Source: Candidatus Magasanikbacteria bacterium RIFOXYB2_FULL_38_10
GTDB taxonomy: Bacteria > Patescibacteriota > Patescibacteriia > Magasanikbacterales > UBA10003
Reading direction: 5' to 3'
DNA length: 34,161 bases
Assembly: GCA_001783145.1 (NCBI GenBank)
Contig: MFQT01000014.1
Coordinates: forward strand, 22,773-56,933
The first letter of the stretch is position 1. The number at the start of each line of letters is the position of its first letter. Below are positions 1,334-3,856 of the stretch, piece after piece. The notes under the pieces were generated by a model. The model was not told the origin of the DNA. It was given only the letters and a program-made list of their open reading frames with translations, and did no database searches. Made by a program: the position numbers and the translations under genes.

Positions 1334-1362
1334 TTGCGCGATTTGTTTTTTTGTGTTATAAT
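1334..1362 (+). promoter_or_regulatory. Promoter (extended -10) of the Mg2+ sensor/NRAMP operon
   Basis: A perfect TATAAT (1357-1362) is preceded by TGT (an extended -10) and lies 17 bp from a weak -35 TTGCGC (1334-1339). The predicted transcript starts near 1369, giving a leader of about 16 nt with no SD before the ATG at 1385. Confidence 0.6.
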
Positions 1363-1384: not shown

Positions 1385-2596
1385 ATGCTTTATTTGAGTC
1401 AATTAATTAAGGCTAAAGTAAAAGATAGTTCTGATGAAGAAATAGGGCGTGTTTTTGATATTTTAATAAAACAAAAAGCGGGTATTTATTCTCCTTTAGA
1501 ATTTTTGATAATTAAAAATAAAAAAAATAAATACTGGGTACCTTTTCAGTATGTGGAAAATCTTGGCGCCGACTCTATCACTTTAAAGACTCTTTGGGAA
1601 AAAATACCTTCTTTTGAGCAACAAAGTAAAGATCTTTTATATCTTTATCATGATATTTTGGATCAACAGATAGTAGATACAGAGGGTGTGCGTATAGTGC
1701 GTGTTAACGATTTAAAAGTTGGTGTTTTTCAAAATAAACTTTCCGTTTTGGGGATTGATGTAAGTTTTAAAGGAATTTTACGACGTTTGGGCTTGGAAAA
1801 AATTGATTTTTTAAGTTTGTTTAAGGTTTATTTAATTGATTGGCGCAAGGCACAGCCAATTCATGGCCACTTAAAAGTTGATACGTTGGCTGAAAGTTTG
1901 GTTAAATTACATCCAGCCGATTTGGCTAATATTGTAGAAAAATTAAATTTGAACGAAGGTATTTTACTTTTAAAAACTTTAGATAAAGACACTGCCGGGC
2001 GGGTTTTAGAAGAAATTCAGCCGGAGATCCAGAAAATTTTGGTACAAAAATTAGGCACAGAAGGGTCGGTTGACGTAGTAGGCAAAATGTCGGTTGATGA
2101 ATTGGTAGATTTAATCCAATCATTATCTCCTGAAGAAGCCTCTTCCATTATTGCCAAATTGCCCAAAGATATAAAAACTCAAAGAGTTAAAAAAATGCTT
2201 ATTTATCCAGAGGATACGGCTGGCGGCATGATGACTACTGAGTTTATTTCTGTTCAAGAAAATTTTACAGTTGCGGAAACAATTGAAACAATTAAAAATA
2301 AGTTTGGTGAATTCACTTTTATTCATTTTGTTTATGTGACAGACAAAGAGGGCAAATTTTTAGGTGTAGTTTCTTTGCGTCGTTTGCTTGTGGCGGAAAA
2401 ACAGCAAACTATTAAAGAAATTATGCATAATTTCTTTAATATGCCCGTGGCTACGGTTGAACAAGATATAAAAGAGGTTGCTTCCATAATGACAAAATAT
2501 AACCTGTTCTCTATTGCCGTTGTTGATGAAAGACAAAAAATGTTAGGTATAGTCACGGTTGATGATTTGATGCGCTATTTTTTGCCTCACGCTTAG
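1385..2596 (+). CDS. PRC-barrel / MgtE-N / CBS-pair protein (Mg2+ sensor module without channel)
   Basis: A 403-residue soluble protein. PRC-barrel-like segments occupy about residues 1-150 (LSQLIKAKVKDSSDEEIGRV and a second one near 90-150). An MgtE N-terminal superhelical domain covers about 165-275 (LHPADLANIVEKL and repeated LSPEEASSIIAKLP-type helices). The MgtE linker motif YPEDTAGGMMTTEF and a CBS pair cover about 280-400. In MgtE channels the N and CBS domains sense cytosolic Mg2+ and gate the pore, but the protein ends at ...MRYFLPHA, where the five-helix membrane domain should begin. An NRAMP-family transporter starts 18 nt downstream, so I infer that this protein senses Mg2+ and regulates that transporter. 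It could instead regulate something else. The domain assignment is secure; the partnership is inference. Confidence 0.88.
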   Translation: MLYLSQLIKAKVKDSSDEEIGRVFDILIKQKAGIYSPLEFLIIKNKKNKYWVPFQYVENLGADSITLKTLWEKIPSFEQQSKDLLYLYHDILDQQIVDTEGVRIVRVNDLKVGVFQNKLSVLGIDVSFKGILRRLGLEKIDFLSLFKVYLIDWRKAQPIHGHLKVDTLAESLVKLHPADLANIVEKLNLNEGILLLKTLDKDTAGRVLEEIQPEIQKILVQKLGTEGSVDVVGKMSVDELVDLIQSLSPEEASSIIAKLPKDIKTQRVKKMLIYPEDTAGGMMTTEFISVQENFTVAETIETIKNKFGEFTFIHFVYVTDKEGKFLGVVSLRRLLVAEKQQTIKEIMHNFFNMPVATVEQDIKEVASIMTKYNLFSIAVVDERQKMLGIVTVDDLMRYFLPHA

Positions 2597-2614
2597 AATT
2601 TTCCGGATATTTAT

Positions 2615-3856
2615 ATGTGGGAAAAAGCAAAAAAAATTTGGCCCAGAATGTTATTTTTTTTCAGTGTGATTGGTCCGGGCATTATAGCCGCCAATGCAGA
2701 TAATGACGCCGGCGGAATCAGTACTTATTCTATCGCCGGTGCGCATTTTGGTCTTAAGATGCTTTGGGTTCTTTTTTTAATTACCTTTTCTTTGGCTATC
2801 ACTCAAGAAATGGGTGTGCGTATCGGACTTATTACTCGCCAAGGATTGGGAGGAATAATCAGAGAACGTTTTGGCGTGCGCTGGACTGTTTTTGCCATGT
2901 TAACTCTTTTGGTGGCTAATTTAGGTACTATTGTGGCAGAATTTGCCGGTATTGCCGCTTCTTTAAGCATTTTTGGTGTTAGTAAATATCTTTCCGTACC
3001 TTTGGCGGCTTTAATTGTTTGGCTGGTTCTTTCCAGAGGTTCTTTTAAATTGGCTGAAAGAATTTTTTTAATTTTTTCTTTATTTTATTTAGTTTATATT
3101 GTTAATGGTTTCTTAATTCATCCTAATTTTGGTGAGTCTTTAACCGCTTTAGTGACGCCACATTTGGAATGGTCCGCTCCTTTTTTGTTAACCTTAATCG
3201 CTTTAATCGGTACAACCATTACTCCGTGGGGTCAATTTTTTATTCAATCTTATGTGGTTGATAAAGGTTTGGATATTAAACATTATCGCGTGGAAAAGGC
3301 CGAGGTATATTTAGGCGCTTTTTTAACCAATATCGTTAGTTTTTTCATTATCGTTGGCACAGCCGCAACTTTATATAAACACGGTGTTAGAATAGAAGAC
3401 GCTAAAGATGCCGCCTTGGCGCTTAAGCCTTTAGCCGGACATTTTGCTGAAATTCTTTTTGCCTTTGGACTTTTTATTTCTTCCATGTTGGGGGCCTTCA
3501 TTTTACCCACAACCACAGCTTACGCGTTTTGTGAGGCATTTGGTTGGGAATATGGTTTTAACACCGGTTGGAAGAGAGCTAGAATTTTTTATAGTATAAT
3601 TTTGTTATCCATTGCTTTGCCTGCCCTTCTTATTTTATTGCCTAAAATTCCTTTAATGAATGTAATGCTTTTATCGCAGGACATTAACGGCATTCTTTTA
3701 CCAATAATTTTAATTTTTGTCATGATTATTATTAATGATAAAAAAGTAATGGGAGAGTATGTAAGCAGGCGCTTAGGTAATTTTATTAGTTGGATTACTG
3801 TCTTTGGAATCATATTTTTTACAATCTTACTTTTATTTTTCTCTTTCTTTAAATAA
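2615..3856 (+). CDS. NRAMP-family divalent metal transporter, probably Mg2+-type (NRMT-like)
   Basis: A 413-residue polytopic membrane protein with about 11 helices and an APC/LeuT-type fold. The helix-1 start GPG (20-22) aligns with NRAMP, but the metal-binding DPGN motif is replaced by DAGG (D31-G34, context NADNDAGGI). In helix 6 the usual M-P-H motif, whose Met favours soft transition metals, is replaced by TPWG (W205-G206). Loss of that Met and presence of Trp-Gly are, from memory, features of the NRAMP-related Mg2+ transporters (NRMTs). Together with the MgtE-type sensor directly upstream, this supports Mg2+ rather than Mn2+/Fe2+ uptake. Family certain; substrate inferred. Confidence 0.85.
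   Translation: MWEKAKKIWPRMLFFFSVIGPGIIAANADNDAGGISTYSIAGAHFGLKMLWVLFLITFSLAITQEMGVRIGLITRQGLGGIIRERFGVRWTVFAMLTLLVANLGTIVAEFAGIAASLSIFGVSKYLSVPLAALIVWLVLSRGSFKLAERIFLIFSLFYLVYIVNGFLIHPNFGESLTALVTPHLEWSAPFLLTLIALIGTTITPWGQFFIQSYVVDKGLDIKHYRVEKAEVYLGAFLTNIVSFFIIVGTAATLYKHGVRIEDAKDAALALKPLAGHFAEILFAFGLFISSMLGAFILPTTTAYAFCEAFGWEYGFNTGWKRARIFYSIILLSIALPALLILLPKIPLMNVMLLSQDINGILLPIILIFVMIIINDKKVMGEYVSRRLGNFISWITVFGIIFFTILLLFFSFFK

Follow-up and report, generated by a model that had tools for sequence, protein, structure and literature searches.

Two adjacent genes in the analyzed stretch of DNA (34,161 nucleotides in total, hereafter the window) form a unit that is conserved across several bacterial phyla. 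We consider it on balance probable that this unit takes up Mg2+ as an NRMT-type system whose regulatory subunit is a separate cytosolic protein, which would inhibit the NRMT at high Mg2+. The first gene encodes a soluble sensor-type protein and the second an NRAMP-related transporter; the two open reading frames (ORFs) are separated by 18 bases, lie in the same frame (Table 1) and reside in the 854-kb genome (20 contigs) of a tiny uncultured bacterium. Conservation of the two genes as a unit, together with the published NRMT metal site, makes a two-gene Mg2+ uptake unit the best reading of the pair. Feedback-regulated Mg2+ uptake is its most likely function, with the regulatory part being predicted.

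The idea as such is not new, since the pairing and the feedback hypothesis were both published in 2014. Shin et al. (PMC4072509) introduced the name NrmT for the family, noted that most of its genes adjoin a gene homologous to the N-terminal cytoplasmic domain of MgtE, and suggested that this companion acts in cytoplasmic feedback regulation or as a chaperone. A later test of the companion protein was not found in the open literature, with subscription papers lying mostly outside the search. Added here, and not found published, are the inventory of ligands, the conservation of the N-terminal barrels, the exchange of partners and the link to DUF1003 described below.

Table 1. Features of the two-gene unit and its upstream region (positions refer to the window)
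Feature	Position	Strand	Basis
Candidate -10 element, TATAAT hexamer	1357..1362	+	By eye, 22 bases ahead of the sensor ATG
Soluble sensor-type protein, 403 aa (PRC, PRC-like barrel, MgtE_N, CBS pair)	1385..2596	+	ORF, Pfam, AF2
PRC-barrel domain, residues 2-72	1388..1600	+	Pfam PF05239, E 1.2e-9
Second beta-rich domain, residues about 84-165	1634..1879	+	AF2 secondary structure, column conservation
MgtE_N domain, residues 175-277	1907..2215	+	Pfam, E 9.6e-21
CBS domain pair (two CBS domains)	2225..2581	+	Pfam
NRAMP-related Mg2+ transporter (NRMT/NrmT clade, predicted), 413 aa	2615..3856	+	Pfam Nramp, E 1.8e-86
Helix-1 metal motif D31-A-G-G34	2705..2716	+	Alignment with EleNRMT NDAGG and Deinococcus MDPGN
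Helix-6 metal motif T200-T-I-T203-P-W205	3212..3229	+	Alignment with EleNRMT and Deinococcus Nramp

Using the transporter as query, we compared 60 homologous loci from one-per-species genomes of several phyla. A sensor gene was present in the flank of 54 loci, upstream on the same strand in 52 of them, downstream in one (L045) and on the opposite strand in another (L033); a natural fusion of sensor and transporter did not occur in the 60 loci. A second, independent test of linkage ran two Pfam searches on one common set of 192 genomes from the phylum, and all 15 sensor-type MgtE_N matches on intact contigs were found to adjoin an Nramp gene. A sixteenth match, in genome G122, is cut by a contig end, and an NRMT without a partner begins at the edge of a different contig of this genome. 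Judged by their C-terminal ends, the remaining MgtE_N matches look like full-length MgtE proteins, except for one 814-aa open frame (L107, G146:C1:137435-138892) with eight overlapping or tandem MgtE_N matches, possibly a long helical repeat protein. An earlier note on this DNA, made from the sequence alone, had named missing linkage in relatives as evidence against a joint unit; the co-occurrence search instead revealed that the pairing of sensor and NRAMP is far beyond chance.

The pair ranges over Patescibacteria, Chloroflexota, Actinomycetota, Armatimonadota, Bacillota and an enterobacterial plasmid, with mostly the same gene order. On annotated plasmids, full-length sensor homologs adjoin an Nramp gene in Alicyclobacillus, Leifsonia, Arthrobacter, Rhodococcus, Citrobacter, Cellulomonas and Pseudarthrobacter, and an ORF search identified a sensor homolog beside an Nramp gene in Streptomyces clavuligerus. 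In the Leifsonia locus (L112:4262-5044), the NRAMP-sensor pair is followed by a gene of the MgtC/SapB family, a further possible link to Mg2+ physiology. The closest NRAMP homolog (82% identity) belongs to a Candidatus Magasanikbacteria (Patescibacteria) MAG, which makes the host of the window a probable member of this group. In this locus (L008:2766-3993) the sensor is split over two frames around residues 307-321, due to either a frameshift or an assembly error.

Assignment of the transporter to the NRMT clade rests on homology, structure and metal site. Its nearest solved relative by far is EleNRMT (7qia; phmmer E 7.7e-117, 394 bits), followed by a next solved relative at E 4.5e-24 and 89 bits, and its model superimposes on EleNRMT with a structural Z of 58 and an rmsd of 2.1 over 399 residues. 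Sequence identity amounts to 48% to EleNRMT versus 22% to Deinococcus Nramp, and Pfam found no domain other than Nramp in the ORF. Ramanadane et al. 2022 (PMC8806188) give DxxG-TxxA/T as the metal-site signature of NRMTs, which is matched exactly by D31/G34 and T200/T203; E109 and W205 of the EleNRMT-type site are also present. The MntH-type site (DxxN plus A/CxxM) was not found in this protein, the Asn being replaced by G34, the Ala by T200 and the Met by T203. Alignment confirmed DAGG in place of DPGN, as proposed in the earlier note, which had, however, misplaced the change in helix 6 by assigning Trp-Gly to the position of the Met. This position is occupied by Thr203, while Trp205 replaces the proton-pathway His and Ile210 stands at the position of the second His. 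As both helix-6b His are lost, proton coupling is probably absent. EleNRMT carries the same Trp at the His position and has been shown to operate without coupling to protons (PMC8806188), and from such relatives we infer that the transporter would carry Mg2+ without proton coupling.

Linked and unlinked transporters were also compared at the metal site. Asp and Gly of helix 1 are present in 68 of 68 linked transporters, and helix 6 reads T..T or T..A in 67 of these 68. Most of the 20 unlinked NRAMPs fetched from the phylum either fall into a different clade, characterized by DP(S/A)G and TTIS-like motifs, or are true MntH (DPGN, Met). The former clade (L088-L101, e.g. in G035, G148 and G119) is common in Patescibacteria and carries DP(S/A)G and TTISPY-like motifs, with no sensor adjoining.

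The soluble protein resembles the cytosolic part of MgtE. An AF2 model based on 48 homologs reached a mean pLDDT of 89, and the best solved relatives are cytosolic domains of MgtE, with a Foldseek TM-score of 0.82 (on the target) to Mg2+-bound MgtE (2yvy) and a VIA-align Z of 27 to MgtE 8gpv (rmsd 2.8 over 243 residues). By Pfam and by structure match, MgtE_N and the CBS pair stand in the MgtE arrangement. The membrane domain of MgtE (PF01769) is absent from the protein according to Pfam, and none was found across the 854-kb genome. ORF calls and Pfam hereby bear out what had been read from the letters, a soluble protein with MgtE_N, YPEDTAGGMMTTEF linker and CBS pair that has no membrane domain. 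Its C-terminus lies nine residues past the position of MgtE D247, and the plug helix and channel are missing. Such a short tail is typical of the family (median 9 residues), most members of which have no plug helix. At the N-terminus, the second beta-rich domain is PRC-like in appearance and may represent a second barrel; Pfam calls the first copy only.

The Mg2+ ligands were mapped onto the sites that Maruyama et al. (PMC5882242) had tested, with a numbering that reproduces seven isoleucine landmarks. Every cytosolic Mg2+ site is needed for closure of T. thermophilus MgtE (PMC5882242). The statement of the earlier note that these domains sense Mg2+ found a divided answer here. Three ligands are retained, namely MgtE D91 of site Mg4 as D238 (conserved in 56 of 60 homologs, rank 27 of 403 columns), D95 of site Mg6 as D242 (59 of 60, rank 11) and D247 of site Mg4 as D394 (58 of 60, rank 20). 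MgtE E59, D226 and D250 are not retained but replaced by R206, N373 and R397, at positions that vary between acidic and non-acidic residues across the family, and E258/D259 lack an equivalent, since the sensor ends ahead of the plug helix. Four of the six cytosolic sites of MgtE (Mg2, Mg3, Mg5 and Mg7) lack a tested ligand in the sensor, which counts against the proposed regulation. Site Mg4 survives, as does D95 at Mg6, but none of the plug-helix ligands. We infer from the sequence that this pattern of retained and lost ligands is what would be expected of a sensor adapted to a different pore. Further, the ATP-stacking Phe227 of MgtE is replaced by Leu374 and the ribose-binding Asp188 by Arg333, so that the sensor has probably lost the ATP effect known from MgtE.

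The most conserved columns of the sensor are largely outside the MgtE part, and the second barrel is better conserved than most of that part. Four of its residues (D93, D98, D109 and R133) are invariant in the 60 homologs. Since the highest conservation is found in the N-terminal double barrel, which is absent from MgtE, this region is a likely working part. Adenine nucleotides are frequent ligands of CBS pairs. The companion could be a nucleotide sensor acting via its CBS pair, or a factor for assembly, stability or Mg2+ handling, rather than a Mg2+-gated inhibitor. Such roles would fit a protein whose top-conserved columns are not Mg2+ ligands and which has lost several gating sites of MgtE, and a chaperone was named as an alternative by Shin et al. 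(PMC4072509). We regard these roles as quite unlikely, because the equivalents of D91, D95 and D247 rank among the best conserved columns of the MgtE part and are kept even in sensors with a DUF1003 neighbor (see below), and because the replaced ATP-stacking Phe and ribose-binding Asp speak against nucleotide sensing. Regulation of the transporter by Mg2+ stays the preferred role of the companion.

The pair might also take up Mn2+/Fe2+ or a broad range of divalent ions, with the MgtE-like protein answering to Mn2+ or another ligand instead of Mg2+. The one published co-expression test, of the Acidobacterium capsulatum pair in B. subtilis, points in this direction: the sensor gave no gain in Mg2+ rescue, and the transporter, an NrmT whose neighbor is an MgtE-like gene, acted like a Mn2+ transporter, with full rescue of a Mn2+ uptake mutant and poor rescue of a Mg2+ mutant (PMC4072509). 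This result counts against the gated two-gene Mg2+ unit suggested in the earlier note, of which the conserved unit and the NRMT site have held up. Additionally, the transporter is the only Nramp in the 854-kb genome, meaning that no separate MntH is present. It has Thr in helix 6 where the characterized EleNRMT has Ala, and EleNRMT binds Mn2+ too (PMC8806188). However, the identity of 48% to EleNRMT and the full match to the NRMT signature, which allows Thr, argue against this reading, as does the loss of the proton-pathway His, unlike in Mn2+ transporters. Further evidence comes from an actinobacterial pair (L034) with the same kind of sensor and a transporter of about 50% identity that carries the same TTITPWG motif. 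This pair is preceded by an M-box Mg2+ riboswitch (E 1e-29), the only M-box and the only riboswitch detected among 55 relatives. We therefore rate uptake of Mn2+/Fe2+ or of broad divalent ions as rather improbable and favor Mg2+ as the transported ion. The genome also encodes a protein of the CorA family and an ATPase scoring above the cut-off of the Mg2+-translocating type (MgtA-type), so that the pair would share Mg2+ uptake with other routes, and this uptake is not its only candidate duty.

Sensor and transporter trees built for the 60 pairs conflict at branches with good support. The sensors of four loci (L057, L076, L077 and L081) are nested among Magasanikbacteria/Peregrinibacteria, while their transporters group with Roizmanbacteria. 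Forcing a 20-row transporter clade on the sensor data cost 108 log units (AU P = 5e-4), forcing the Doudna/Roizman transporter clade cost 59 log units (P = 2.5e-4), and forcing a sensor clade of 11 on the transporter data cost 733 log units (P = 1e-60); these P-values are optimistic, because the groups were picked after viewing the trees and the trees were 'quick' ones, and the conflict is still large. A mirror-tree correlation (r = 0.58) was set aside in favor of the tree tests, as shared descent alone yields such a value. We conclude from the strong conflict that sensors and transporters exchanged partners. Disagreeing trees would also be expected if each gene moved freely and adjacency were a habit of gene order only, with two proteins that do not act together. 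This explanation is extremely improbable and largely refuted by the linkage counts already, given that the pair is adjacent across several phyla and mostly in the same order despite the exchanges, and that every sensor on an intact contig of the phylum sample was found beside an Nramp gene. That partners changed yet adjacency was kept argues for a shared function and an interface that would tolerate exchange. Together with the surviving ligands and the conservation of the barrels, the exchange of adjacent partners sharpens the question of the companion's role.

A different neighbor was observed in three actinobacterial plasmid records (Tsukamurella, Nonomuraea and Nocardia), where DUF1003 (PF06210) is located directly downstream of a PRC-MgtE_N-CBS sensor (L120:4269-4796, L114:4136-4675 and L121:4149-4601) and no Nramp homolog was found near the pair. 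The equivalents of D91, D95 and D247 are kept in these three sensors. Position D125 in the second barrel holds Ala in each of them, compared with Asp in seven of the eight NRAMP-linked plasmid sensors. Though three cases are few, this pattern would fit a constant Mg2+-sensing core combined with a partner-specific barrel. DUF1003 is a candidate new partner of the sensor or component of Mg2+ transport. We tentatively suggest that PRC-MgtE_N-CBS could be a portable Mg2+-responsive regulatory subunit, traded among membrane partners that are unrelated, namely different NRMT sub-clades in Patescibacteria and DUF1003 in actinobacteria. If so, one type of sensor would gate at least three pores (the MgtE channel, the NRMT carrier and DUF1003), and DUF1003, a little-studied small membrane protein, would become a candidate component of a Mg2+ transporter or channel. 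As a general third component in Patescibacteria DUF1003 was rejected, with matches in 35 of the 192 genomes and a position beside Nramp in G181 only. In this sole case (L090, G181:C1:290941-292438) the DUF1003 gene adjoins a DPSG-type Nramp.

It is plausible that the sensor gates the transporter, and binding of the two proteins to each other, binding of Mg2+ by the sensor and inhibition of the transporter are all predicted. Largely hydrated Mg2+ would enter the cell through the LeuT-fold NRMT down its electrochemical gradient. At high cytosolic Mg2+, the 403-aa protein would bind Mg2+ between MgtE_N and the CBS pair via D238/D394 and D242 and close into the compact form known from MgtE. The closed sensor would then dock on the cytoplasmic face of the NRMT and inhibit it, probably making contact via its N-terminal barrels. 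For the complex, whose structural prediction was among the checks named in the earlier note, we modeled the pair as one AF2 chain, an artificial construct in which the stop between the genes is read through and 15 other rows were paired. The model has a mean pLDDT of 91 (below 50 in the linker 404-415) and a pTM of 0.74; as this exceeds the value of about 0.5 that we estimate for halves without a set placement, it lends some, albeit weak, confidence to the docking. Against the model, NRMTs of C. acetobutylicum work without a sensor in B. subtilis (PMC4072509), and an NRMT is also active without it in liposomes. If the sensor gates the NRMT, one Mg2+-sensing module controls both a channel and an unrelated carrier, which would be a clear case of a regulatory domain reused across transporter families.

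The region between the upstream gene, a response regulator, and the sensor measures 91 bases, whereas the M-box model is longer (169 positions). An Rfam search at gathering level detected neither an M-box nor another Rfam element in the window, which counts against Mg2+ as the ion, and low-threshold matches were rejected as chance. An M-box precedes a subset of NRMT/NrmT members and is no general requirement. The TATAAT hexamer was not called by the consensus promoter scanner. Visual inspection of the stretch from the response regulator to the sensor (1293-1385) also showed, at about 1304-1331, a hairpin with T-rich sequence after it that resembles an intrinsic terminator and is absent from the scanner output. 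Downstream of the pair, a third ORF for an amino-acid-permease-like protein can start 7 bases past the NRAMP ORF, and longer co-transcription is therefore possible.

Among known systems, the C. acetobutylicum NrmT transporters (Ca_c0685 and Ca_c3329; PMC4072509) likewise combine an NRMT with a soluble homolog of the MgtE N-terminus. Compared by description, the C. acetobutylicum operon differs in being under an M-box and in having the MgtE-like fragment split into two genes, whereas our pair has no M-box and its sensor is a single gene. With the Mn2+/Fe2+ transporters of the MntH/Nramp type (Deinococcus Nramp and EcoDMT), the transporter shares the NRAMP/LeuT fold, the metal-binding Asp and the helix-3 Glu, but it has none of their DPGN motif, AxxM site and proton-pathway His. 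EleNRMT of Eggerthella lenta (7qia) is alike in its DAGG helix 1, in the Thr at the position of T200 and in the Trp replacing the proton-pathway His. It differs by Ala227 in place of Thr203 and Asn234 in place of Ile210, and the searched passages of PMC8806188 make no mention of an operon or companion gene. The cytoplasmic domain of T. thermophilus MgtE (2yvy/2zy9) shares MgtE_N, the CBS pair and D91/D95/D247 with the sensor. MgtE additionally possesses the channel domain, the plug helix and E59/D226/D250, which the sensor lacks, while the sensor carries an N-terminal barrel region of about 165 residues that is absent from MgtE.
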